Source: a virus
Strand: one strand, 5' to 3'
DNA: 21,627 nucleotides
Virus record (IMG/VR): IMGVR_UViG_3300005451_000010
Span: 1 to 21,627 of that record
Shown: piece after piece, positions 1 through 20,531 of the stretch
How the letters are laid out: the number at the start of each line of letters is the position of its first letter
Position numbering within the stretch: the first letter of the stretch is position 1
The notes under the pieces: generated by a model
Seen by the model: the letters and a program-made list of their open reading frames with translations, nothing else
The model's database searches: none
What the model was told of the DNA's origin: nothing
Translations under genes and position numbers: made by a program

Positions 1-909
1 AACAACTTGAGCAGTCGGGCTAAAACCAGAAATATCATACGACGATTTTAAGCGCCACCATGACCCAAACGGAAAACAAGTCGCATCACTCCCACAAGCC
101 CCTGCGTAGTTTGTGGCAGGCCAAGTTGATTTAGGCTGAATGTATCCACCAGACAAGGTAAAACGCAACGCATGGTCAATATGCCCCGCTTTCAGTTCGT
201 CGTAGCGGACCAGTAACGGCAAGATGTACATACCAGCCGCGTCAATGGACCCACCTCCGTCCCCAGCGTCCGCCAATTGATAGGACATCGGACCATACTG
301 GACGCCAGACTGCGCGTTGCAAGTGGGACAATCTCCTTTGGTTCCAACTGGGTAATAGTTATAGATTTCTGTCATCTGGCATGTGCTTGTGCTGAGCCCA
401 AGCTGATGTCTGTCTTGGGCAAAGTAGTCCGACGGATAGAGCGCACTTTCTACGCCCCGATAAGGTGCCGCTACAATCGGAAACTGCTTTCCGTCGCTTC
501 CTGTCGTGTAGTAGAACTTCATAGTGTCTGTTGGTGTAGCATTGCTCATCACATTTAAAGGAAAGTCCGTCTCAAATTGGATGGGAACGGCCCCGGAGAT
601 ATTGGCAATGCGCGTGGCGCTGTTGGCGGAAACCGGCAAGGAGGTGATATCCACATTATAGATGTGGTCGTTGGGAAGGACCGGACATCCTGCAATTTGA
701 TTACGGGCTGGAAAGGACGCCGGGGCTGTGTAGAGTCCTCCTGCTGAGATGGTTCCGGTACTTCCCGGCATCATGGACCAAGTAACGGTATCCGTCGAAT
801 AGAGCTGAACGCTGTTCCCCAGATAAACGGTTGCTGTGGAAGGTGTGACAATCGGGGCCGCTTGAACAAGTCCTTCCAGAAAGATGAAACTCACGGCGTA
901 CCATTTCAT
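1..909 (-). CDS. Secreted protein with Ig-like N-terminus and conserved beta domain (partial, 3' end outside window)
   Basis: The frame is open from an ATG at 909 to base 1, giving 303 residues without a stop, so the C-terminus is missing. The N-terminus (MKWYAVSFIFL, then VQAAP) looks like a short Sec signal peptide, although a Glu sits at its end. Residues about 20-62 resemble a bacterial Ig-like domain: a 'V-T-P-S-T-A-T-V-x-L-G' strand, then 'V-T-W-S' and 'G-T-I-S-A-G-G-L-Y-T-A-P'. The rest shows a set of motifs (DRHQLGLS, ILPLLVRYDELKAGHIDHAL, WPATNYAG, RLKSSYDISGFSP) that I recall from secreted hypothetical proteins of soil bacteria such as Acidobacteria. This is recollection, not a search. 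Six cysteines are visible, including a DCPTC pair. Its ATG overlaps the upstream TGA (ATGA), so it belongs to the fibre operon. A role as adhesin or secreted accessory protein is inferred. Confidence 0.75.
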   Translation of the reverse strand, partial: MKWYAVSFIFLEGLVQAAPIVTPSTATVYLGNSVQLYSTDTVTWSMMPGSTGTISAGGLYTAPASFPARNQIAGCPVLPNDHIYNVDITSLPVSANSATRIANISGAVPIQFETDFPLNVMSNATPTDTMKFYYTTGSDGKQFPIVAAPYRGVESALYPSDYFAQDRHQLGLSTSTCQMTEIYNYYPVGTKGDCPTCNAQSGVQYGPMSYQLADAGDGGGSIDAAGMYILPLLVRYDELKAGHIDHALRFTLSGGYIQPKSTWPATNYAGACGSDATCFPFGSWWRLKSSYDISGFSPTAQVV

Positions 910-1655
910 TCGCTGAGTCTTTCCATTTTAAGCATTTTACATGCACCACCACCCGCACAAACTGTAGGACTGGATGTTTTAAAGGCTGCCATCAGCATAG
1001 ACCATGGGGCACTTCCCGATGCTGTTATGGTTGCCGTTTGAGCTGTGCAGTCTGTTGCATTGACATCTTCCCATCCATAAGAATTTCCTTGTGAAGTATG
1101 TGCCTCTTGTCCTTCTATCGTATAAGATCCTCCTGCTGTGTAAGTAAGACTATTAGCCATAGATATGCCGCCCGCTACAATCAGATCATTGGCAGCCGTG
1201 GGTGTGCAGGAACCGCTGGTCAATGCAGTACTATTGCCACTGGAGCCAGCAGAATGGCAATCGGCTACAGTCCCAATCGCCGCCATATTGGTATATTCGC
1301 CGCAACCACTATCTCCTGTATGACTGTCAGCCCAAGTAGGACCACACGAACCAAAACCGCTTCCCGCGACAACTGTCCAAGAAATGATCGTTTCGTTACT
1401 GGTGCCATTTAGTGTCGTATAATGAGTCCATGTTTGTGCAGTACCGCCATCTTGATCTCCCGTAATCGTTGTTGTTCCCTGAATGACCGTCACGCAAACA
1501 ACTAAATTCCCAACCGCTACGTTTGGAGTAAAAGAACAAAGACTTCCTGGTTGTGATGTAAAACCTCCTTCCGCACATTTATGAAGTGGCGGAGCGGCGC
1601 ACCACGTTTGATAAGGGATAAACAGGAATAGACCTACAGCAATTAAACGTTTCAT
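906..1655 (-). CDS. Secreted cysteine-rich beta protein, likely appendage or adhesin
   Basis: This 249-aa protein starts at the ATG at 1655, which overlaps the upstream stop as ATGA. An ATG-proximal extension by seven residues is possible but would put a non-signal sequence before the Lys-Arg. The N-terminus (MKRLIAVGLFLFIPYQTWCA) has a basic n-region, a hydrophobic core and an A-x-A-type end: a plausible signal peptidase I substrate. The mature part is rich in Thr, Ser and Gly and has ten cysteines spread along it, an even number consistent with disulfides. The pattern 'VGNLVVCVTV', then a short C-terminal strand ending in 'W-S-M-L-M-A-A-F-K', is of a type I associate with extracellular beta-sandwich proteins next to phage fibres. 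No catalytic motif is seen. It sits between two other signal-peptide proteins. Confidence 0.75.
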   Translation of the reverse strand: MKRLIAVGLFLFIPYQTWCAAPPLHKCAEGGFTSQPGSLCSFTPNVAVGNLVVCVTVIQGTTTITGDQDGGTAQTWTHYTTLNGTSNETIISWTVVAGSGFGSCGPTWADSHTGDSGCGEYTNMAAIGTVADCHSAGSSGNSTALTSGSCTPTAANDLIVAGGISMANSLTYTAGGSYTIEGQEAHTSQGNSYGWEDVNATDCTAQTATITASGSAPWSMLMAAFKTSSPTVCAGGGACKMLKMERLSE

Positions 1656-2689
1656 GGGGAAACAACTTCCATCCATTGCCAGTTAACAGAAATTTTAGCT
1701 CCTGTCATACTGGTATTTTCGAAGTTAACGCCCACACATTGCGTAGCACCTCTCAAAACAATGGGTTTTAGACGCCAATTAGCCGGGGAAATATAGATAT
1801 CATTCGGCGTGGCTGTCGCAGCCGCCATGCAACCTAACTGATAATTGTCCAAATGACCTACCAAAGTCCCGTTATTTTGATTTCCTGTCGTAAAGAAAAT
1901 GGCACTCGATTGGACCACTCCATAGTTAGAGTCCTCTGGAGTGGCTGTCATCGTTGACCATTGACCTGTATAAGCACTGGAACGTTTCATTACAGAAAGA
2001 GACACGTTTCCAGCTGTTGTCTGAGTACAAGATACCCGCAATCCCGTCAGATAGACCGTTTTAGCCGCATTCCCACATAAGGCTGTTACATCCGTGTTTG
2101 TACTGGCTGCTACCAGTGAAAACGTGTTGGTTGACGCACTGTAACTGGCGAAGGTGATATCCGGTCCAGACCAGACACCCATCAAACCGCTGCTACTTAA
2201 AATCATGGTCGCTACATCCCGACCTTGCGTAAATTGGGACCCATTATTCCCAAAAGCACTTTGCGAAATGCCTGGTAAAGTAGGCAATCTGTTGGTGCCA
2301 GCTGCAACGCCATTATTTGATAAGGTTCCCACCATTCCAATGGTTGAATTGGCAACTTGCCAAGAACCCGTGCCCGCTGCAACAGTAAACCCTCCCGCGT
2401 TGAGGACTGTCCAAGTTCCTGTTCCGGCAGTGACCGTAAATCCAGCTACATTGTTCACAGACCCAATTGCGTTGGTACCGGCTGGAATAGCCGCGATCAT
2501 GTTAACAGGTGCCGTGCTGAAGCAAGTCGTCGTTCCTGCCGCTCCGTCGCACAATTTAACCTTCTGGTAGTTCACTCCTCCTACGGCATCTGTTCCGATG
2601 GTTGTTCCTGTTCCCTGTGTGATCGAAATGTCTGCCCAGACCCATGCTCCAAAAGCCAAAATTATGATGCCAATGAGTAAACGTTTCAT
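1652..2689 (-). CDS. Secreted phage-type structural protein with tandem 17-residue repeats
   Basis: The protein has 345 residues, starts at the ATG at 2689, and is preceded by GGGGTG as a weak ribosome site. Residues 1-19 (MKRLLIGIIILAFGAWVWA) form a clear signal peptide with V-W-A before the likely cleavage site. The next segment, 'T-D-A-V-G-G-V-N-Y-Q-K-V-K-L', matches a domain I recognise from phage virion proteins that read D-x-x-G-G-V-x-Y-Q-R-V-K. Residues 81-97 and 98-114 are tandem copies of A-G-F-T-V-x-A-G-T-G-x-W-x-V. The C-terminal half (about 190-345) resembles a receptor- or fibre-type beta domain and carries most of the six mature cysteines. The phage-type domain fused to a secretion signal is the odd feature. 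Fibre or surface attachment is the likely role, by context. Confidence 0.78.
   Translation of the reverse strand: MKRLLIGIIILAFGAWVWADISITQGTGTTIGTDAVGGVNYQKVKLCDGAAGTTTCFSTAPVNMIAAIPAGTNAIGSVNNVAGFTVTAGTGTWTVLNAGGFTVAAGTGSWQVANSTIGMVGTLSNNGVAAGTNRLPTLPGISQSAFGNNGSQFTQGRDVATMILSSSGLMGVWSGPDITFASYSASTNTFSLVAASTNTDVTALCGNAAKTVYLTGLRVSCTQTTAGNVSLSVMKRSSAYTGQWSTMTATPEDSNYGVVQSSAIFFTTGNQNNGTLVGHLDNYQLGCMAAATATPNDIYISPANWRLKPIVLRGATQCVGVNFENTSMTGAKISVNWQWMEVVSP
2348..2449 (-). repeat. Two tandem 51-bp coding repeats (17-aa beta unit)
   Basis: The two copies encode VAGFTVTAGTGTWTVLN and AGGFTVAAGTGSWQVAN within the secreted phage-type protein. The DNA copies have diverged at third codon positions while the peptide is kept. 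This suggests a selected structural repeat, such as a beta-solenoid rung, rather than a recent duplication. Confidence 0.8.
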
Positions 2690-2702
2690 ATCATCACCCC
2701 AA

Positions 2703-2918
2703 TCATTGTTTGTATGTCACTGCGCATAAAATACCCATACACTGACCTGTCACTGTTGAAACCGCAACGGACTCAAATTCTCTGACTCCTAAATCCAGAT
2801 AACCTCCCTGGACTGTAACTTTAGCTCCCTGGATATTCACTTCCGATTGCGGAACAGCCCAAACTCGACTAATAAAAAATACAGAAAAAACAGCCGAAAT
2901 GATCCATATTATCTTCAC
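2703..2918 (-). CDS. Small secreted protein of unknown function
   Basis: This is a 71-aa protein with a GTG start at 2918, placed six bases after AAGGGG. That ribosome site lies across the TAA of the fibre gene upstream, so translation is probably coupled. Residues 1-22 (MKIIWIISAVFSVFFISRVW, then A) form a strong signal peptide with V-W-A before V-P. The mature part is only about 50 residues and contains short alternating strands (SEVNIQGAKVTVQGG) and two cysteines near the C-terminus (QCMGILC), which could form one disulfide. I do not recognise the family. Its place in a run of secreted genes and its coupling to the fibre gene suggest a fibre accessory or chaperone-like factor, but nothing in the sequence proves this. 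Confidence 0.65.
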   Translation of the reverse strand: MKIIWIISAVFSVFFISRVWAVPQSEVNIQGAKVTVQGGYLDLGVREFESVAVSTVTGQCMGILCAVTYKQ

Positions 2919-2921
2919 TCC

Positions 2922-5777
2922 TTACCCCTTATTTCCGTGACAAATATACCACACCGTTCCGCCGCCTAAAGTAGCACTGAACCCAAACGTAATCCCGGTG
3001 GTCGTGATGGACGTAATATCCGCTGTCACAGCGGTTGAGTTGGTGGATTGCACGCAGATTGGCGGATTGACCCAGGGATTGGCAAAAGTCATGGCGCAGG
3101 ACGTTACTATTCCACCTCCAACAGTAATCATACCAGCGGTATCCGTTCCGGAAACTGAAGGGGATGTCCCACAAGTCCCCATGGTAGGAGTCGTACCGCT
3201 TGAAACAATATGACCATCCGCCTGCACTCCGAATACCATGGTGGATGTTGCGGCAGACGTGAGCGTCAGTTCGTAGTCTGTCGGTGCCACAGCGGGCTGT
3301 GTTGAGATACTGACCATTGGCGTACCAACTGTGGATGTTGAAAATTGCGCGATATATTGGTACGTGTTGCTGTTAGCCACGCTCATTAAACCGCCTGCCG
3401 TAATCGTCCAGCTGGATGCGGATGTTTGCGCATGACTCCAGTTATTTTCTAAATCAGTGTAGGCCACATCCGTTGGAATCTCTGCGGCTACTAGACGCGT
3501 CGCACTCCAGATACCCTGTGTAACGGTACCCAACAAGGTAGGCAATGTCCCCTGCAAGGTAACAGAGGAAGGATTCAATGTATAGAAATAGGTATTCCCA
3601 GCAATCAATTTTCCATTGGTTGTCGCTGAATCAAACAAAATCTGTGTGGTGGAATTGGAACTTGAAATCGCTGGACCAAAAAAAGCGTTAGGACCTCCGG
3701 TAGTAATCGCTAGCGAAAAGGCACTCCCTCCACTTCCTCCAGTTAACGCCTGACACGTAAATAAGCTAGATGCACTGTAACCTATAGCATGAGTTCCGTC
3801 ACCGCACGTTGAAAGACCGGCCCCTGTCATACTTCCCACATTCATGTTATAAAGCACATTCATGCCGTTGGTTCCTTGAACACTCATACTGGAGTAAACA
3901 ACCACACCGTTCGATGACACAGAGACGGTTTTTGTCTGTCCTGGGAGCATCACGATCGGCTGACCTTTATTGGCTGTTGTCTGCAAATCCATTTCACCAG
4001 TATTCCCACTACCACTGTAAAAATCTATTTTATTGTCTACAGATGCCTGAGCGTGAATATCATTGTCGCTTTTTCCCATAATGATCGCCGCTCCACTAGC
4101 ACCCGCTACGATTCCCTTATCAATGACCAAATCTTGATGGTCTTGGAGGTAAACTTGATTTTGTTTTGTTTGACTTCCAACATTAAATAAGACACGGCCA
4201 TCGTAAGAATCGGGTCCTACATAGATATCTAAAAAACTTGGTAAACTATTAGTACCTCCAGTATTGATGGTGACGGAGCTGCCAATCGTGACACTCGATC
4301 CATTGAATTGAAATTTGCTAGATCCCGCAAAAGCGCTACCACTTTTATACTGGACCGAATTGTCGGGACCACCCGGCGTAAAAGAATTGGGACAGGGACC
4401 GGCATCAAGAAGCGTATAGTCCGTCGTATTCCCCCATTTCGCACAATTCCCAAACGTAAAAGGACCGCTGGCCGCGACCACGGTGTAAGTAGACCCTCTG
4501 AGCGTTTCAATAACAGAACCATCACCAGGACCATTAATTGTCACTGAACCGGCTGTTATTCCATAAGTGACCGTACTTTGAGAAGGACCGGTAAAAAGAA
4601 ACGTAGTTCCCGTTTCATTTGCCGTCAAATTAAGATAAGTGATCGTTGAGGCGTTGGACGTAAAGTTCGCAACAGTTCCGCTGGACACATTGAATGTCGC
4701 CGACTGAACGGTTGTCTGACTATGGATAAAATCGGTCGTTGCGGGATTTAACGAAAGATAAGCCGTGGTTCCTGACGCAGTAACCAAAAATCCTTGACTG
4801 TTGAAATTCTCAGAATTAGTGGGGCTTGTGACTTGGACGCCAGAACGTGTTACCTGCAATGATGATCCGCTTCCGCCGCCGCCGCCTCCACATGCCCCTC
4901 CACTGCTGGTCAATTTTCCAGTTCCATCAGACTGTACGCACTGCCCGGACGCTAGGTAACTCGCTATAAGAGACGTATCAACAGACATGGAATGCGCCTG
5001 TAGAATTCCAGTCGTAGTCGATATAGCCATATGATAATCTGTTCCAGAAAGAGTCGGAGAAGTACCAATCAATACGGAATAAGCATTGGCTGTGCCTCCC
5101 TTAACAGCAAACTGGGATGTTCCTGAAACGGTATGAGTCCCAATATAAACAGGATTTTCAAAGGCCGAACGAGTACCAGATGGACTAATTGAATTTCCCA
5201 CACGGTCCCCGTAAATGGGACCAATCATCAAATGACCTGCCGAAAAAACGGCTGGAACATTGGACCCGTCAATTAAAGCAGACCCGCCAGCAGTACTTCC
5301 TATCAATTGAAGAACCGGCTGAGTCGCTCCGTCGTTTTTCACGTAGACATAGGCCGTCCCATCTGTATTCGGCAATTGAAGATAGGCAGTCCCACCTGCC
5401 GTGGTAAAAAGCCCGCAGATGGTCCCGGACGAGTTGCAGACATCCAGCGTACCCCCGGTCGGCCCGAAAAACTTGACCGTACCGTTTACCACCAGTTTCT
5501 CCGTGCCATTATAAGCATCTGTCGAAACATAAAGGCGGTTGAAGGTGGCAGACGAAAAGGCGACGGAACCAACAAATATGTTGTATCCCGTAAACGAATT
5601 GGAACTGCTCAAAACCGCAACGGAAGAATCAATAATATAGAAATTGGTGGAAACTTTCGTTCCCCAATTTGTTTCGTGGAGATCAGGCGCGTACAGTCCG
5701 ATTTTAGGCGTGGTAGTCCCAGCTAGACAAAACGCGGGTATTAAAACACTGCCTAACCCGATCAAAAAACGCTTCAT
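2922..5777 (-). CDS. Tail-fibre-like protein with N-terminal signal peptide
   Basis: The largest protein here has 951 residues. Its ATG overlaps the glycosyltransferase stop (ATGA). Residues 1-19 (MKRFLIGLGSVLIPAFCLA) form a signal peptide. Residues 22-55 (TPKIGLYAPDLHETNWGTKV, then an N-F-Y-I-I-D motif) resemble the start of phage fibres that mention a time- or position-counted 'N-x-N-x-x-I-D'. The body is Ser/Thr/Gly-rich beta repeat. It includes a glycine run at about 295-305 and a 'D-N-S-V-Q-Y-K-S-G-S-A-F-A-G-S-S-K-F-x-F-N-G' unit of the kind repeated in many phage fibres. The C-terminus has a fibre-tip-type domain (GTDTAGMITVGGG, then SCAMTFANPW, ending in WYICHGNKG). Twelve mature cysteines occur as six close pairs. 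Host recognition is the likely role. The signal peptide on such a protein is very unusual. Confidence 0.85.
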   Translation of the reverse strand: MKRFLIGLGSVLIPAFCLAGTTTPKIGLYAPDLHETNWGTKVSTNFYIIDSSVAVLSSSNSFTGYNIFVGSVAFSSATFNRLYVSTDAYNGTEKLVVNGTVKFFGPTGGTLDVCNSSGTICGLFTTAGGTAYLQLPNTDGTAYVYVKNDGATQPVLQLIGSTAGGSALIDGSNVPAVFSAGHLMIGPIYGDRVGNSISPSGTRSAFENPVYIGTHTVSGTSQFAVKGGTANAYSVLIGTSPTLSGTDYHMAISTTTGILQAHSMSVDTSLIASYLASGQCVQSDGTGKLTSSGGACGGGGGGSGSSLQVTRSGVQVTSPTNSENFNSQGFLVTASGTTAYLSLNPATTDFIHSQTTVQSATFNVSSGTVANFTSNASTITYLNLTANETGTTFLFTGPSQSTVTYGITAGSVTINGPGDGSVIETLRGSTYTVVAASGPFTFGNCAKWGNTTDYTLLDAGPCPNSFTPGGPDNSVQYKSGSAFAGSSKFQFNGSSVTIGSSVTINTGGTNSLPSFLDIYVGPDSYDGRVLFNVGSQTKQNQVYLQDHQDLVIDKGIVAGASGAAIIMGKSDNDIHAQASVDNKIDFYSGSGNTGEMDLQTTANKGQPIVMLPGQTKTVSVSSNGVVVYSSMSVQGTNGMNVLYNMNVGSMTGAGLSTCGDGTHAIGYSASSLFTCQALTGGSGGSAFSLAITTGGPNAFFGPAISSSNSTTQILFDSATTNGKLIAGNTYFYTLNPSSVTLQGTLPTLLGTVTQGIWSATRLVAAEIPTDVAYTDLENNWSHAQTSASSWTITAGGLMSVANSNTYQYIAQFSTSTVGTPMVSISTQPAVAPTDYELTLTSAATSTMVFGVQADGHIVSSGTTPTMGTCGTSPSVSGTDTAGMITVGGGIVTSCAMTFANPWVNPPICVQSTNSTAVTADITSITTTGITFGFSATLGGGTVWYICHGNKG

Positions 5778-6505
5778 TCCTCAGCCTCATTTCCTATAAT
5801 GACTTTCTCGGTCACATGGCCTACCATAACTCTTGGGTCAACCAAAACCTTGATCCCTGCCTGCTTAAGCTGGTTGCAAAACCACATGTCTTCACTGTGA
5901 CCATTGAACGTGAAGTCCCCACCCGTGGAATAAGCATTCACATACTTGCAAAAAGGCTGTTCCAGTTTCTTGAAAATTTCCGTACGCATCAAAACACATC
6001 CCAGGCCGAACACGTCCACTGGCTGTATCACATCAAAGAATTGGAGATGCTTGAAAAAAAGCGTCTGGGTTCCGTCCTGAGCGATAAACCCCTGAGATTT
6101 CAACGCTTCCCGCTTGGGTTCCAAGCTCTCAGACCATGGGCTGTATTTCCCGACCACGGCCCGATAGGGGAACGTTTTGGTGAAGTAAACGCCCGTCACC
6201 GCACCTGCATCGGGATTTTCAAGCAAGGTATCAAGGAGCGCGGTCAGCGTGTTTTTCTTAAATACCTGGTCCATGTCAGCGCACATGATCAATTCCGCTT
6301 CATATTTGTTGGAAGTTGAAACAGCGAAGGCTTCGTTACGATTCAAGCAGATCGGGAATTTGCCGCTGATATAAAACTTGAGCTTGTAGTCTTTCAGAGC
6401 GAGTTCTTCCTGAACGTCAGGCCCCGTCATTTCAAGAAAACTCTTAAAGACTTTGCTTGAAACGGTCTGGAAGGTAAGGGGGCTGTAAACAAGGATAGTT
6501 TTAAT
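5774..6505 (-). CDS. GT-A-type (family 2-like) glycosyltransferase, apparent ATT start
   Basis: It probably transfers a sugar from a nucleotide-sugar donor in the cytoplasm; donor and acceptor are unknown. The first ATG (6430) would give 218 aa but would cut off the first beta strand. The frame continues upstream as KTILVYSPLTFQTVSSKVF, a good GT-A N-terminus. The only plausible start there is ATT at 6505, 11 bases after a perfect AGGAGG, giving 243 aa. With that start, the DxD motif is A-D-M-D (D77, D79) after the hydrophobic strand, and a later G-H-S-E-D motif (E205, D206) fits the catalytic-base region. V-F-G-L-G-C-x-L-M-R lies between them. No membrane segment is seen. Phages use such enzymes on DNA, host surface sugars or virion proteins. 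The adjacent fibre makes the last idea attractive but unproven. Confidence 0.82.
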   Translation of the reverse strand: MKTILVYSPLTFQTVSSKVFKSFLEMTGPDVQEELALKDYKLKFYISGKFPICLNRNEAFAVSTSNKYEAELIMCADMDQVFKKNTLTALLDTLLENPDAGAVTGVYFTKTFPYRAVVGKYSPWSESLEPKREALKSQGFIAQDGTQTLFFKHLQFFDVIQPVDVFGLGCVLMRTEIFKKLEQPFCKYVNAYSTGGDFTFNGHSEDMWFCNQLKQAGIKVLVDPRVMVGHVTEKVIIGNEAEE

Positions 6506-14211: not shown

Positions 14212-14478
14212 TCAACCTTTCATGAAAAAGTATCTTTTCGGTTTTTCTTTGGAGTAATAAAACAGCCTTTTTTCTTCCGGATGCCAACGCCTATCCCGAA
14301 TGTCTGAAATATGCGCTGTGGACCCTTTCGGATCATGCGGGTTGGCATGGCCCATTTCTTTAAAGTAAGGCGCGTTGGACACTTCTTTTTTTAAGCACCA
14401 TCGGCAAATCCATGCGCCGCTTTCCAGAAAAAGCGAGCTGGAAAATTTTAAGCAGTAAGTGCACCGATCTAAGTTCAT
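14212..14478 (-). CDS. Small zinc-ribbon protein
   Basis: The start is ATG at 14478, with no recognisable ribosome site because a strong hairpin lies six bases upstream. The 88-aa product has C6-x2-C9 and C25-x2-C28, a classic two-knuckle zinc ribbon (CTYC, then CRWC). A basic tail follows, with HISDIRDRRWHPEEKRLFYY. The 'H-I-x-D-I-x-x-R-R' phrase is one I recognise in many short phage proteins near the capsid genes. Function is unknown; nucleic-acid or protein binding is likely for a ribbon with a basic tail. It belongs to the region between the head and the neck genes. Confidence 0.7.
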   Translation of the reverse strand: MNLDRCTYCLKFSSSLFLESGAWICRWCLKKEVSNAPYFKEMGHANPHDPKGSTAHISDIRDRRWHPEEKRLFYYSKEKPKRYFFMKG

Positions 14479-14533: not shown

Positions 14534-14947
14534 CTAGTAACCTTGTGCAACGCGACCCTTTTCCCAAATAATGGTCGAGGGCACCAAGCTTGTGCCGTTG
14601 GCTGCCATCAGACCGTTATTAAACTGCATGGGAGGATCGAAGTTCACAACTGTTATCGACGCCGTTGACGCCGCATTCACCCGCACGCGGAAGTTCCCAG
14701 TTTGCGCGATATTCGTGATACCTGCGCTGGACGCTGAATCAAAGAGCGTCACAAAGTCTGTGACGGCCCCTGTTCCCAGGATCACGGAATAAACCACTGC
14801 CGCACCCGTGGAAATACCAATTACGGACGTATTTCCATTGATGACCGAGACGCTCTTTGCGCCCCGGACGCCGGAAGCGGCGTATAAGGCACTGCCCAGA
14901 AACAGCATCAAACCCAAGACGAAACAAACCGCCGATTTATTTTTCAT
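14534..14947 (-). CDS. Signal-peptide-bearing beta protein of capsid-decoration type
   Basis: The start is ATG 14947, nine bases after AAGGAGG, which itself spans the capsid TAA; the ATG 12 codons upstream lies only two bases from that site and is rejected. The product is 137 aa. Residues 1-23 (MKNKSAVCFVLGLMLFLGSA, then LYA) form a strong signal peptide. The mature 114 residues form a beta domain: VVYSVILGTGAVTDFVTLFD, then a strand pair and F-N-N-G-L-M-A, ending in STIIWEKG. Such 'x-V-Y-x-V-x-V-x-x-x-G' and 'F-x-x-G-L' patterns belong to small phage decoration- or fibre-type domains. A relative, by pattern, is the protein at 16743-17093. No mature cysteines are present. The gene follows the major capsid protein. 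Secretion of a capsid-associated domain would be remarkable. Confidence 0.75.
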   Translation of the reverse strand: MKNKSAVCFVLGLMLFLGSALYAASGVRGAKSVSVINGNTSVIGISTGAAVVYSVILGTGAVTDFVTLFDSASSAGITNIAQTGNFRVRVNAASTASITVVNFDPPMQFNNGLMAANGTSLVPSTIIWEKGRVAQGY

Positions 14948-14961
14948 AGGTTCATTCCTCC

Positions 14962-15828
14962 TTAAGCCGCGCTCGTGATCCATGCAGCGTGGTTATCCCG
15001 AAGGGTTGCCACACCGTATAGAGCCGAGCCTGCGTAGTTGGTGCTGTACCGAATACGCGCGAACTTTTCCAGTTTGAAGTCTCTCTGCATAACGACGCCG
15101 AAAGCCTCCTTGTGGAAAAGCACGTTATCACGTTTTGAAGACGTCGTTGTCACCCGCGTTGTAACCACGACCGGCGTGCCGTAAAGCCCAACAATGCGTC
15201 CGTCGCCTACCTGAATGCCCTTGGAAAACCCCGTCGTATTGGCAAGCGTGAACTTGTCAATCGTCAGGAGGTCCGAGTGCGCAACAGGAGCTAAGACCCA
15301 CGTCCGATCTTCTTTGGGGACTTCCAGATCATCCAACAGTCTCTGACCTAAGAGAACTTTGGGATCACTGAACGCCCCGCCTGTCGTGTCCGTGTTGGTC
15401 GTCAAGGACGCCACCAGCGCCAGAACGTCGTCATCCTGTTTTTGCGCAATGGCTTTCCCGAACGCTTCCGAGAACTCCGTTTCCCATTCCAGCACGGCCT
15501 GAGCGTCTACAATGTCCACCAAGTCAGCGGATACGTTCTTCCACTTGTTGATGGTAATCGTCGCCACCGTAGGACTCACTTCGGTGTTGGTGAAGGAACC
15601 GTCCGTCGTTGAGATGTCCGTGGTCGAGAGAGACGGAAAGATTTGGAATGTAACACGATCTCCCGCCTTCTTGATTTGGCCCTGAACCAGCGAATCTCCT
15701 TCAACGCCGTTCAAGCATTTCACCCACACTTTTGACGCGGCGTATCGGGCTTTTAACGCGCGGGTTCTAAGCCACGCGGGTACAGCCGTTGATACGCCGG
15801 TACTGTCTAATCCTGTTTCGTTAGCCAT
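14962..15828 (-). CDS. Major capsid protein (HK97-like fold expected)
   Basis: The protein has 288 residues from ATG 15828, with AAGGA nine bases upstream. It carries 'G-D-R-V-T-F-Q-I-F-P-S-L' followed by acidic, Thr-rich 'S-P-T-V-A-T-I-T-I-N-K-W-K', then D-L-V-D-I-V-D-A-Q-A and a long helix (EFSEAFGKAIAQKQDDDVL). This order (extended strand, E-loop region, spine helix) is common to capsid proteins of the T7/P22-like HK97-fold group. The C-terminal part contains V-G-L-Y-G-T-P-V-V-V-T-T-R-V and ends with F-A-R-I-R-Y-S-T-N-Y-A-G-S-A-L-Y-G-V-A, which fit the P/A-domain. It lies between a scaffold-like and a decoration-type gene, as expected. It has one cysteine, and no signal peptide. Confidence 0.88.
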   Translation of the reverse strand: MANETGLDSTGVSTAVPAWLRTRALKARYAASKVWVKCLNGVEGDSLVQGQIKKAGDRVTFQIFPSLSTTDISTTDGSFTNTEVSPTVATITINKWKNVSADLVDIVDAQAVLEWETEFSEAFGKAIAQKQDDDVLALVASLTTNTDTTGGAFSDPKVLLGQRLLDDLEVPKEDRTWVLAPVAHSDLLTIDKFTLANTTGFSKGIQVGDGRIVGLYGTPVVVTTRVTTTSSKRDNVLFHKEAFGVVMQRDFKLEKFARIRYSTNYAGSALYGVATLRDNHAAWITSAA

Positions 15829-16742: not shown

Positions 16743-17093
16743 CTAGTAGCAATCGTATAGAATCGTCGAGACTTGCGTCCCGGTGCTGGTATAAATCAAG
16801 CCGCCTGGAAAAACCGCCCGATATTCGTAACTCCCTAAACTCCTCGGATCAATCGGGCCCAGCTGATTGACGTTGGTAAACGTAAAACTGGAATCCGCAA
16901 GCGTCATCCCGGACGCTTGGCCCCCTGCCGAAGAAATAATCACCTTGTAAACAATGCTATTTCGACTGCCGGCGCATAAAACGCCAACCGGAACGCCTGC
17001 CATTGTCGTGGATGACCTCCAGACCGATTCCATCGCCTGCGCGCAAACCGGCAAAAAAGCCAGCATCAAGAAAAATAAAAGTTTGTTCATCAC
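16743..17093 (-). CDS. Signal-peptide-bearing beta protein of decoration type
   Basis: The start may be GTG at 17093 (GTGA overlap) or ATG at 17090 (TGATG); GAGGAG lies upstream at good spacing for both. Residues 1-21 (MMNKLLFFLMLAFLPVCAQA) form a strong signal peptide with A-Q-A before M-E. The mature part is about 95 residues, mostly beta (IVYKVIISSAGGQASGMTLA), then R-A-V-F-P-G-G-L-I-Y-T-S-T-G-T, ending in LYDCY. Pattern and size match the protein after the capsid gene, and I regard both as the same kind of small phage decoration- or fibre-type domain. Two mature cysteines are seen. It is set between the portal block and the scaffold gene. The stop is TAG. Confidence 0.72.
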   Translation of the reverse strand: MMNKLLFFLMLAFLPVCAQAMESVWRSSTTMAGVPVGVLCAGSRNSIVYKVIISSAGGQASGMTLADSSFTFTNVNQLGPIDPRSLGSYEYRAVFPGGLIYTSTGTQVSTILYDCY

Positions 17094-17386
17094 GGATTCT
17101 CTCCTCTGGGAATTTTAAGTTCATCCAATAACGCATTGACCGGATTGGTCTCTTGATTGGATGCTTCCTGCTCCATTTTTTCCAAAGCCCGCAAGTGCGC
17201 TGTAACCGCTACTTTAAACCCCTTTTCCTGGCCGGACCAGTAACGCCAGGCCGATTCTTGGCCGCGTGAAGCCGCGCGGTCCCGGGCTTCTTCAATTTTG
17301 GATACTTGATGCAGCCATTCCGTCTGTAGAACGGCCCAGCCGGGTGACTCCACCAGCGTTTTCAATTTCAAGTAATCGTTGTTCAC
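17090..17386 (-). CDS. Small helical protein between portal and scaffold
   Basis: The gene encodes 98 residues and starts with GTG at 17386, overlapping the portal stop (GTGA), with GGAGG a few bases upstream. It is charged and helical throughout: 'L-K-L-K-T-L-V-E-S-P-G-W-A-V-L', then HLRALEKMEQEASN. The opening 'L-x-x-L-x-E-S-P-G-W-x-V-L' is one I recognise from short proteins next to portal genes in environmental phages, where the role is unknown. It ends with LLDELKIPRG. A role as portal-capsid assembly helper is possible by position only. Confidence 0.7.
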   Translation of the reverse strand: MNNDYLKLKTLVESPGWAVLQTEWLHQVSKIEEARDRAASRGQESAWRYWSGQEKGFKVAVTAHLRALEKMEQEASNQETNPVNALLDELKIPRGENP

Positions 17387-19137
17387 AGTGCCTCCGCGTA
17401 ACGTCCGACAGATTCTTGATTGGCCGCCGCTCCTAACGACCCAGCATGTGATTTTAAATGGCCCAGTACCGCTTCCGCCTGGTCCGCCGCGTTCGGCATA
17501 ACAGCTTGCGGCGCGTTTGGCGCGGGCGCGGTCATTCCCGGCAACTGCGGGATCGTCTGCCAGACAGATTTCGGGTTCATGCCAACACCGCGAGCGAATT
17601 CCTCTACGAAGGGTTCCAGGTTCACCTGCCCCAACTGCGGGTTTTGATTGCGGATACTGGACACCACCTGCAAGAATTGAAGCAAGTCTTTGTTCCGTTG
17701 CGGACGGAAATCTTTGTCCGTCACGACTTTGGTCGCCACTTCCACGTCAACCGCCAGGTCGGAGGGATAAACTTTCAGCCCTTCGTCGCGGCCTGTCACA
17801 GCCAGCGAAAACGCTTTGTCCAAAAAGGTCATGTTATTTTCGTGCATCTTGGACACGTGCTCGCGCAAAAGAGATTCGGAAATGTTTTCCGCAATCACCG
17901 ACAATCTCCGTACAGCTTCTGTCTGGGCAATAGAGGATTCGGTAGCGGAAGCCTGGGTCACAATCGCTTGCAAGTTATCAGACGCGCCGGAGGTCGTCCG
18001 AAAATCCGTTTTCATCATGGTGTCCATCTGTAACCCGAAGTTGATCGCTTCAATCTGTGGACGGAGGGCCTTTAAGGAATTTTCCACGTCGGTTTCCACT
18101 TCAATCACACCCCAGGGCTTCGCTTTCAACTGCGCCGACTTGATGTTGGCGCTCCGGGACGCCAGCCAAATGTTAAAAAGGCTGAAAATCAACACGTCGT
18201 GCATCCGGCCCATATTGAAATTGATCTCCGGCTGTTTGGCTTCCCCAATCGAACCCACGCCGTACCCGTAGGGTTCCAGCTCAAACTCGTTTAAATGCGC
18301 CACCGTAAACGGCTGGCGTTTGTACACGGACTTGTGCGCTTTCAACGTCGCGTTGTCGTTTAACGTCGCCGCGCAGAATTCGCCTGTCGGACTCGATTTC
18401 AAAGGCCCGTAATAAATCACCAGCTGATACATCTTGGAGGTCTGACTGGACGATCCTAGATAGGACTGATACCCCGCATTGGCAAGCCGGGCGTTCACTT
18501 CCGGCGGGATGTTTTTGGTTTGACTGGAAAGAGTCAACGCGTCTTCCATCACCTGCGGGTCCCAGACGTCCGGCATTTTATGGCTCATCGCGCGCAACTG
18601 ATCTTCCGTCACAAAATCCAGCACGAATTTCCAGGGGGAAGACCCGATATCAAAACACAACGGATCAAAACCCGTCTGTAAGAGACTCCTCGGCACAAAA
18701 TCCGTCGCTTCAAAGTAAGGGGTATTCACAACCCACGGTTCTTCTACCATGACCGTCCCGAACAATGCGGCGGACCGGCAGGCTTTCAAAAGTTTGCGGT
18801 TGTAGCGCGTGGCCGTCATCTGCCAGCCCACCACCGATTCCGCTGTCCATAAATCTTCTTGAGTGACCATCGGGTTATTCGACAAAAATTGGAAATTGGG
18901 CTGAGCCGCCGTTAAAGCCCGATAGAGAAACGTAGCGATAGCTTCCGTGGCGCGAGTCGTTTCCGTGGACTGCGGATTGGCAAACCCGGACAGGTCCGCT
19001 GGACGGGTCGGCTTTAAGAGACGCCAGAAATCCGCCATGGTGTTAAAACGCAAAAGTTTACTCTGCATCCGGGTATGCCAGAAGTCCACTTTTTCTTTGA
19101 TTTCCAGATGCACGTCGCCGATTTCAGGGTCAATCAT
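17383..19137 (-). CDS. Portal protein
   Basis: The portal forms the ring at the DNA-entry vertex and joins the terminase during packaging and the adaptor afterwards. The start is ATG 19137, overlapping the large terminase TGA (ATGA); a start six codons earlier (19155) is open but has a weaker context. The product is 584 aa. The N-terminal part 'S-T-E-T-T-R-A-T-E-A-I-A-T-F-L-Y' and the later 'R-Q-P-F-T-V-A-H-L', E-P-Y-G-Y-G-V-G-S-I-G-E-A-K-Q-P-E-I-N-F-N motif are the signature of podovirus-type portals (pattern Y-G-x-G-x-G then Q-x-E-I-N). The C-terminus is Ala/Pro/Gln-rich (PGMTAPAPNAPQAVM) and probably disordered or barrel-like. Three cysteines are visible in 584 residues. Gene order, terminase then portal then scaffold, fits. 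Confidence 0.9.
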   Translation of the reverse strand: MIDPEIGDVHLEIKEKVDFWHTRMQSKLLRFNTMADFWRLLKPTRPADLSGFANPQSTETTRATEAIATFLYRALTAAQPNFQFLSNNPMVTQEDLWTAESVVGWQMTATRYNRKLLKACRSAALFGTVMVEEPWVVNTPYFEATDFVPRSLLQTGFDPLCFDIGSSPWKFVLDFVTEDQLRAMSHKMPDVWDPQVMEDALTLSSQTKNIPPEVNARLANAGYQSYLGSSSQTSKMYQLVIYYGPLKSSPTGEFCAATLNDNATLKAHKSVYKRQPFTVAHLNEFELEPYGYGVGSIGEAKQPEINFNMGRMHDVLIFSLFNIWLASRSANIKSAQLKAKPWGVIEVETDVENSLKALRPQIEAINFGLQMDTMMKTDFRTTSGASDNLQAIVTQASATESSIAQTEAVRRLSVIAENISESLLREHVSKMHENNMTFLDKAFSLAVTGRDEGLKVYPSDLAVDVEVATKVVTDKDFRPQRNKDLLQFLQVVSSIRNQNPQLGQVNLEPFVEEFARGVGMNPKSVWQTIPQLPGMTAPAPNAPQAVMPNAADQAEAVLGHLKSHAGSLGAAANQESVGRYAEAL

Positions 19138-20531
19138 TGAAAGTACCCGTCCCAAATCTTGTCAAACTGAAATCCGCCCAAGGGTTCGTCGTTTTCCACT
19201 TTCCAATGGGGCCTGGCTAAGGCCGCCTTTTCTTTCCGGTACTCCGCCGCTTTTTCGTCGTGCGTCAGTTCTTTCTTGTACGGACCTAAAAACAATTCGT
19301 ACTGCAGCATCTCCACTAAATAATGCAGAGCGTCCACCAAATCCTGCGCGCTCGTTTCGTCTGTCTTTTCCATCAACGTGTCTTTCCATTCGTACATCAA
19401 AAGCTGCTTCCAGAGTTTCGGACAGCGGTCTTTGTCAATCAGAAGCCGGTTCTGACGTAACAGTTCCTGGATCATTGATCGGCTGTGTTTCTTGTCGCGG
19501 CTGGAAGGAATCAACGGAGAAATCCCAGCGTTCCGAAAATGCCAGATCACCGACAAGCCTTTCATGGCCGGGTCTTCCTTGGCAGCGTCATGCGAAATGG
19601 CGGTCCGGTCCACCTGCTCAGCATCCGAGGTCATGCCTTTCACCAGTTCCGCCTGAGCCGGCGCAGATAAGTTATTGTCGGCGTACTCGCGGTAAATGCA
19701 AAGTTTGTTGCTGCGAATGTCCGCCCACAACACACCTGTGTCATCTCGCATACCCCAGTCAATGGACCGATAAACTTTCCCGACAGGGACCGACAACTTA
19801 GCAACATGATGCTCTGGCGAAAGCGCCGAAAAAACGCGCCCGACGCTCGATTCGTACTCCGCTAAATATTCCTGACGCCAGATCGCCTCGGAATCGCAGG
19901 AACGCCGGGCATCTTCAATCTCGTCTACGGACAGGTGCGGATTGTCGAAAATCGTGTAGTGAAACACCGCCCACTTGTTTTCACCTCGCGCCATGGATCT
20001 CAGAGCCTCCTGCTCCAAATCGTAAAACCAGTTGTAGCCTTTGGGCGTCCCAATAAACAGGCAGGGGGCTAACTTCGGAATTAAGTTCGGACGTAACACC
20101 TCGTGCCAAACTTCTTTGCGCTGGTACGGCGCTTCTTCTAACGTGGCAGACGACGGCGCTGGACCGCGCAGGGAATCCGGGTCATCAGACCCCATCAACA
20201 AAAGCTGCGAGCCGTTCTGCAACAGCAAACTTAAATCCTGTTCGTTCGGGCGTTTGGCAATGGCTTCCTGCGGGATCATGCGCTTGAATTCCGACCAGGA
20301 AATCAGTTTCGCCATCTTGTAGGTGGGCGCTATGTGCCAGTGCGTCTTCCCAGGCGAACCAATCCAGTCTAAACCCTTCTTCTGGGAATAAACTGTCTTC
20401 CCAAATTTCCGGCCAGCCCGCACAATCTTAAACCGCGCCGGATGCGCGTCGATCACAGATTGCGCGGGCGTCAGCTTCAAATCCAGCTTGTAAACTTTCC
20501 GCTTCTTTTCAGCAGACGTCAACAGGTCCAT
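19134..20531 (-). CDS. terL: Terminase large subunit (ATPase and nuclease)
   Basis: TerL drives DNA into the procapsid and cuts the concatemer. The 465-aa product has Walker A at residues 38-46 (RAGRKFGKT), a Walker B-like hydrophobic strand ending in L-E-E-A (E132, E133) rather than the common D-E, and a coupling motif G-T-P-K-G at 161-165. The nuclease half has S-I-D-W-G with D258, S-H-D-A-A with D315, and D-L-V-D-A-L with D397/D400, consistent with the RuvC-like metal centre. Length is on the short side but intact. The start ATG 20531 shares a base with the upstream TGA (TGATG). The Walker B replacement by Glu should not abolish activity but is unusual. Packaging mode (pac or cos) cannot be told from it. 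Confidence 0.93.
   Translation of the reverse strand: MDLLTSAEKKRKVYKLDLKLTPAQSVIDAHPARFKIVRAGRKFGKTVYSQKKGLDWIGSPGKTHWHIAPTYKMAKLISWSEFKRMIPQEAIAKRPNEQDLSLLLQNGSQLLLMGSDDPDSLRGPAPSSATLEEAPYQRKEVWHEVLRPNLIPKLAPCLFIGTPKGYNWFYDLEQEALRSMARGENKWAVFHYTIFDNPHLSVDEIEDARRSCDSEAIWRQEYLAEYESSVGRVFSALSPEHHVAKLSVPVGKVYRSIDWGMRDDTGVLWADIRSNKLCIYREYADNNLSAPAQAELVKGMTSDAEQVDRTAISHDAAKEDPAMKGLSVIWHFRNAGISPLIPSSRDKKHSRSMIQELLRQNRLLIDKDRCPKLWKQLLMYEWKDTLMEKTDETSAQDLVDALHYLVEMLQYELFLGPYKKELTHDEKAAEYRKEKAALARPHWKVENDEPLGGFQFDKIWDGYFQ

Follow-up and report, generated by a model that had tools for sequence, protein, structure and literature searches.

Why would a tailed phage, a type of virus whose assembly is by textbook account cytoplasmic, begin its tail fibre genes with signals for export? 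The question is raised by IMG/VR virus record IMGVR_UViG_3300005451_000010, of which positions 1 to 21,627 were analysed here (the window, 21.6 kb). It holds a single podovirus-type morphogenesis block on the minus strand, in which five consecutive genes of the fibre region (P5, P4, P3, P2 and P1) and two small genes in the capsid block (g6 and g7) each start with a Sec-type signal peptide. The explanation that we favour, at a probability of roughly 0.55, is that the fibres, together with the two small virion-type proteins, undergo export, cleavage and often disulfide bonding, and that they join the particles at lysis. The sequences strongly support export of the signal-bearing proteins as a prediction, whereas their cleavage, their disulfide bonds and their incorporation into the virion are steps that we infer.

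Signal peptides in the window

Signal peptides were evaluated with a home-made scorer for the n-, h- and c-regions, used at the same lenient setting for the window and the background. Of the eight well-known E. coli pre-proteins used to calibrate it, PhoA had a lower c-region score and the other seven a high one. All seven window genes pass, with the Sec/signal peptidase I architecture of a positive n-region, a short hydrophobic core and small residues at positions -3 and -1. Among 97 virion-region genes of T7, P22, lambda, HTVC112P, Pf-WMP4 and A-4L two were flagged, namely lambda Lom, a genuine exported membrane protein, and the borderline P22 orf69, and 8 of 323 spurious open reading frames (ORFs) passed.

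The first-pass annotation had proposed Sec signals on all five genes at positions 1 to 5777 and had read their ends as of the A-x-A type, V-W-A twice and C-L-A once among them; both the signals and these ends (WVWA, RVWA and FCLA) were found. P5 (2922..5777; like all window genes given below, on the minus strand) encodes a long tail fibre in which the signal MKRFLIGLGSVLIPAFCLA is followed, after the predicted cut, by an anchor domain, TTTPKIGLYAPDLHETNWGTKVSTNFYIIDSSVAVL. P4 (2703..2918) encodes a predicted exported protein of 71 amino acids with a GTG start, a Shine-Dalgarno (SD)-like site upstream and the signal end SRVWA/VPQ, the slash marking the cut. The remaining three genes encode predicted exported proteins of the fibre region: P3 (1652..2689; signal MKRLLIGIIILAFGAWVWA), P2 (906..1655; MKRLIAVGLFLFIPYQTWC/A or WCA/A) and P1 (1..909; MKWYAVSFIFLEGLVQA), which is incomplete at the window end. 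Beyond this cluster, two more signal-bearing genes lie in the capsid block and complete the seven N-termini that the annotation had listed. These are g6 (14534..14947; MKNKSAVCFVLGLMLFLGSALYA), directly after the capsid gene, and g7 (16743..17090; MNKLLFFLMLAFLPVCAQA), between portal and scaffold, which encode predicted exported beta-sandwich proteins of 137 and 115 amino acids, respectively.

The signals of P3, P5, g6 and g7 are strong. P2 combines a good hydrophobic core with an unusual site (TWC/AAP or WCA/APP), P4 has an Arg in the c-region, and P1, with a Glu in the core, is the weakest of the seven. The start of P2 was placed at MKRLIA and not at the upstream ATG at 1676, because its ATG overlaps the stop codon of P3 as ATGA. 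Wrong start codons as a source of the signals were rejected on the basis of this overlap and of the SD-like sites, and chance hydrophobic N-termini on the basis of conservation in relatives. Direct reading of the seven N-termini does not support lipoproteins of the signal peptidase II type, which would have a lipobox ([LVI][ASTVI][GAS]C) at the cut. P1, P3 and P4 have no lipobox; P2 reads QTWC, P5 AFCLA and g7 PVCAQA, and the cysteine of g6 lies early in the core.

Relatives and the domain behind the signal

Relatives, which share 59-66% identity in the portal or 39-79% in the capsid protein, were identified in IMG/VR via the portal, g6, the fibre and the capsid protein and read gene by gene. 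In their families the scorer passes 16 of 17 g7 proteins, 13 of 13 g6 proteins and 11 of 12 products of the first fibre gene, and the n/h/c architecture is kept across divergent relatives. The two failures are still signal-like, one being a g7 protein with Arg-Arg in the c-region (L079) and the other a fibre for which a short start was chosen (G006). The first-pass annotation had called for a comparison of homologues and named related fibres without the signal as evidence against its reading. Signal peptides persist in the three gene families, all 12 related fibres that were checked have a signal-like N-terminus, and homologues without a signal peptide were seen in distant phages only (phiM5, Tunturi_4 gp112 and others).

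The 11 fibres that pass include two from siphophage contigs (L048:5947-6798 and L049:5962-6993), the tail modules of which are unrelated and which share the fibre with signal peptide plus anchor with the podoviruses. The sharing suggests that modules have been exchanged or that these phages infect the same group of hosts. L082, the relative farthest from the window (39% capsid identity), has three g7 domains fused behind one signal peptide (L082:4966-5958; A6 profile, E 1e-14). Elsewhere g7 occurs as three tandem genes (L073:1679-2685) or as two (L015, G003:18407-19108), each gene with its own signal peptide. The second ORF after the capsid gene in L082 (8675-9441) encodes an incomplete tail protein, possibly of the nozzle type, with an apparent signal peptide, MGHRPAIALIRAFLIGFLFTGSAQA/DIF; its start is uncertain because the ORF shares 28 bases with the gene upstream and lacks an SD-like site. 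The morphogenesis modules of G003 and G004 (L014-L016) are near-identical and come from two different metagenomes; the fibre gene of G003 encodes 1970 amino acids.

The domain that follows the signal was modelled from the mature N-termini of P5-type fibres. Among 1492 ORFs of reference loci, this hidden Markov model (HMM) matched six proteins without signal peptides (E 2e-6 to 2e-14): Tunturi_4 gp112, phiM5 gp19, one protein in Chlorobiaceae phage CV-1-33 and three in Manatee Spring phages. The anchor domain begins at residue 2-3 in all six, with a further upstream TTG possible in one. Gp19 of Sinorhizobium phage phiM5 is a host-binding tail fibre annotated as "detected in phage particle proteome"; its N-terminal domain (MADTFTANFNLTKPEVG..TWGAKLNTDLDTIDS) is homologous to the mature N-terminus in the window (HMM E 1e-8), but starts at residue 3 with no signal peptide in front. 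The predicted cut thus gives a conventional fibre N-terminus, and since it exposes the very domain that starts the signal-less fibres, the signal peptide appears to have been added in front of a normal fibre.

The anchor domain bears on two other explanations. The strongest competing idea gives the exported proteins a surface role against superinfection: they would be non-virion components of the envelope or cell surface that mask receptors, block superinfection or keep progeny off debris, as Cor- and Llp-like proteins do. Phage surface proteins with signal peptides are established, lambda Lom from the tail-fibre region is itself a true exported membrane protein, and receptor-binding fibres shed to the surface could act in this way. 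However, the fibre still has an N-terminal domain of the virion type after the predicted cut, all relatives with contigs that span the capsid block have g6 and g7 inside it, and signal peptides on all fibre-region genes leave no cytoplasmic fibre candidate in that part of the window. No window protein had a Pfam or PHROG match to superinfection-exclusion families of the Cor/Llp type. We therefore regard a surface role as unlikely, while taking it seriously. Another possibility is that the signals are uncleaved anchors that hold the fibres in the inner membrane, where the tails would be finished. Hydrophobic N-termini of 17-30 residues could serve as anchors, and P1 and P2 are without a perfect cleavage motif, but sites of the A-x-A type recur across families, cleavage would expose exactly the anchor domain of the signal-less fibres, and the cysteine parity of the discovery set (see below) is sensible only after removal of the signal peptide. 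Uncleaved anchors thus seem quite improbable.

The second set of exported proteins, g6 and g7, is modelled by AlphaFold2 as eight-stranded beta-sandwiches (pLDDT 82 for the window g6, 76 for a relative of g7). Foldseek matches both to many small tailed-phage proteins, and the list for g7 includes virion proteins of cyanophages S-TIM5 and S-SCSM1. In the PDB, the fold of g6 comes closest to that of a capsid cement protein from Helicobacter phage KHP40 (7dou); the match is weak (E 3.7e-3, TM 0.45) and no sequence relation was found. Searches of PDB sequences with g6 and g7 profiles gave none or chance matches, and tblastn with a g6 copy (L037) gave no match in cultured phages. We do not claim a common origin of g6 and g7 despite their similar strand order, because HHalign aligned 36 columns at 23% probability. 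That they decorate the head or portal is a guess. They could also, together with the small P4, be separate morons such as lysis or envelope proteins, in which case only the exported fibres would concern the virion. In support of this, many small phage proteins of unknown role share their fold, and no gene lies at the corresponding positions in Pf-WMP4 and A-4L, two related podoviruses. Against this, the position of g6 and g7 is strictly conserved and g7 has been duplicated in tandem in G003 and L073, and we find the moron interpretation doubtful.

Cysteines in the mature proteins

The mature parts of P1 to P5 contain 6 (partial), 10, 6, 2 and 12 cysteines, exactly as counted in the first-pass annotation. 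It had also reported no cysteine in the scaffold and one in the capsid protein, which holds, and none in the ejection-type proteins, which holds unless a far-upstream start is used for a 403-residue ORF, which then has one. Overall, cysteines make up 38 of 2031 residues in the exported mature parts of the window versus 12 of 3858 in the other proteins (Fisher P 3e-9). The difference is also seen in the larger sample, where 60 exported mature parts contain 1.34% cysteine versus 0.43% in 60 cytoplasmic module proteins, an approximately threefold enrichment (P 6e-12).

The mature g6 and g7 proteins always contain 0, 2 or 4 cysteines, and the number is even in all 24 of those that contain any. In g7, four cysteines are conserved in close relatives, of which the second and third were lost together in the window; g6 has zero or two, and its pairs occupy three different combinations of sites. 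In the discovery set, 16 of 17 fibre-region proteins have an even number in the mature part. Fifteen signal peptides of this set contain an odd number of cysteines, and all 15 of the corresponding mature parts are even. Since the precursors are near equal in parity (16 odd versus 17 even), this pattern fits removal of the signal peptide.

One further explanation denies the hydrophobic N-termini any role in export and has them insert into the virion instead, where they might, for instance, pack fibre trimers or dock to the tail. Some virion proteins do use hydrophobic termini, and nothing more direct speaks for this idea here. A Lys/Arg n-region, a short hydrophobic core and an A-x-A end recur on unrelated proteins in at least three families, the signal-less homologues manage without a hydrophobic N-terminus, and the signal-bearing proteins are enriched in cysteine, all of which makes insertion into the virion very improbable.

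Several observations weigh against the explanation that we favour. The even-cysteine rule, a prediction fixed beforehand, failed in the fibres of fresh contigs (7 even, 6 odd); these contigs alone give no support, although the pooled fibres are 23 even versus 7 odd (P 0.003). The siphophage fibres of L048 and L049 have one mature cysteine each, and the cysteine counts of g6 and g7 are phylogenetically non-independent. The fold link between g6 and the cement protein is weak, export of an abundant head protein would be costly, and all members of the family are uncultured. Because fibre parity failed on replication, we claim enrichment for the fibres and cysteine pairing for g6 and g7 only. The earlier suggestion of folding in an oxidising compartment thus gains from the enrichment and from the paired cysteines of g6 and g7, but not from even counts in fibres, which were seen in 7 of 13 on replication.

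Two cysteine motifs were observed in the fibres. Three otherwise different fibres (L012:3230-3952, L029:13798-15186 and L084:9609-12365) have a similar cysteine-rich C-terminal motif of the type YCSNCVxDxVC...TxxC. A repeated linker motif, GxCVQ...L......ACGxGG, with two cysteines 15 residues apart, occurs in P5 (window:2922-5777), G3_fib and G6_b; a tblastn search for GQCVQ...ACGGGG gave no match in cultured phages.

Gene order, proposed route and known phages

The block runs from terminase, portal, a 98-amino-acid gene, g7, scaffold, capsid, g6 and a small CxxC protein to a coiled-coil protein, tail tubular proteins, ejection-type proteins, a glycosyltransferase and P5 to P1. TerL, portal/head-tail connector, capsid and tail tubular genes (phrog_2, phrog_332, phrog_267 and phrog_399) are in the order of podovirus-type Caudoviricetes. 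The large terminase (19134..20531; phrog_2, E 2e-33) is followed by the portal or head-tail connector (17383..19155; phrog_332, E 4e-19) and the major capsid protein (14962..15828; phrog_267, E 9e-25; Pfam PF25209), the latter two without signal peptides. A glycosyltransferase-2-like gene, also without one, lies immediately upstream of the fibre cluster (5774..6430; phrog_1574, E 1e-13) and has a counterpart at the equivalent position in several relatives. The small CxxC protein after g6 (14212-14478) is zinc-ribbon-like and conserved in several relatives. None of P1-P5, g6 and g7 could be assigned convincingly to a Pfam or PHROG family, P1 having a weak PHROG match to an Ig-domain protein (E 0.009), and tblastn with P5 found no match in cultured phages. 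A search for the host, scanning GTDB genomes with portal and fibre profiles, gave no match.

We propose that this podovirus family makes its tail fibres, g6 and g7 as pre-proteins, which the host Sec system would export and signal peptidase I would trim, as the sequences strongly suggest. The mature chains would fold outside the cytoplasm, many of them with disulfide bonds, an idea that is supported for g6 and g7 and suggestive for the fibres. Heads and tails, which lack signals, would meanwhile assemble in the cytoplasm. Lysis would open the inner membrane and let the exported parts meet them, and the fibre could then dock through its freshly exposed anchor domain, which the signal-less fibres have at residue 2-3. 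At the same late step g6 and g7 may, more speculatively, decorate the head or portal. On this view, completion of the particle would take place outside the cytoplasm. Of the three options in the first-pass annotation (appendages added outside the cytoplasm, host-surface proteins and uncleaved anchors), we favour the first because the predicted mature N-terminus equals that of a signal-less fibre detected in particles. A broader statement, that there is a tailed-phage lineage in which fibres and small head or portal decorations are Sec-exported, cleaved, oxidatively folded and attached at lysis, with the virion finished outside the cytoplasm, has in our estimate slightly less than an even chance of being correct.

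If true, a conserved export signal before an ordinary fibre means that morphogenesis involves a second compartment. Disulfide-stabilised receptor-binding proteins would become possible, and particles would be infectious only at or after lysis. Such fibres would escape any annotation in which a signal peptide counts against a virion role. The literature searched, with most subscription journals outside its scope, contained no description of tailed-phage fibres that are exported.

Virion proteins with cleavable signals are familiar from filamentous phages, as in the coat proteins pVIII and pIII of M13, which are incorporated into the virion outside the cytoplasm. They provide a working analogy, but are unrelated, membrane-anchored and part of extruded particles, whereas the proteins considered here are soluble fibres of tailed phages. 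According to one paper, the target proteins of phage diversity-generating retroelements are without the signal peptides found on their bacterial counterparts (PMC6199706). Pf-WMP4 and A-4L (Saffermanviridae) share with the window the order terminase-portal-scaffold-capsid-tail-...-fibre and 26-28% capsid identity, but have no signal peptides in the module.

Signal-bearing fibre-like proteins also occur in cultured phages, where they have apparently not been remarked on. In Tunturiibacter phage Tunturi_4, a much larger circular phage with an acidobacterium host, gp112 has the N-terminal domain of the window fibre (E 2e-14) without a signal peptide, while gp113 and gp114 (PP885687 83651-87324), annotated as tail or virion proteins, carry signal peptides and have 8 and 20 mature cysteines. 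Proteins annotated as tail fibre or putative structural protein are similarly equipped in Burkholderia phage BcepC6B (gp19, NC_005887 20959-22032; signal MKKLIAILLAVPALA, 4 mature cysteines) and Xanthomonas phage PBR31 (orf35, MT119766 24674-25483; MKKLIALFSLFCTSA, 2 mature cysteines). These two phages differ from the window in that one such gene was found in each, beside lysis genes and outside the capsid block; no comment on the orf35 signal was found in the PBR31 paper (PMC10975493). All three cases were reached by following the homology of the L049 fibre and are therefore uninformative on frequency. Signal-bearing fibres in these phages suggest that export is used more broadly among tailed phages than has been noticed.

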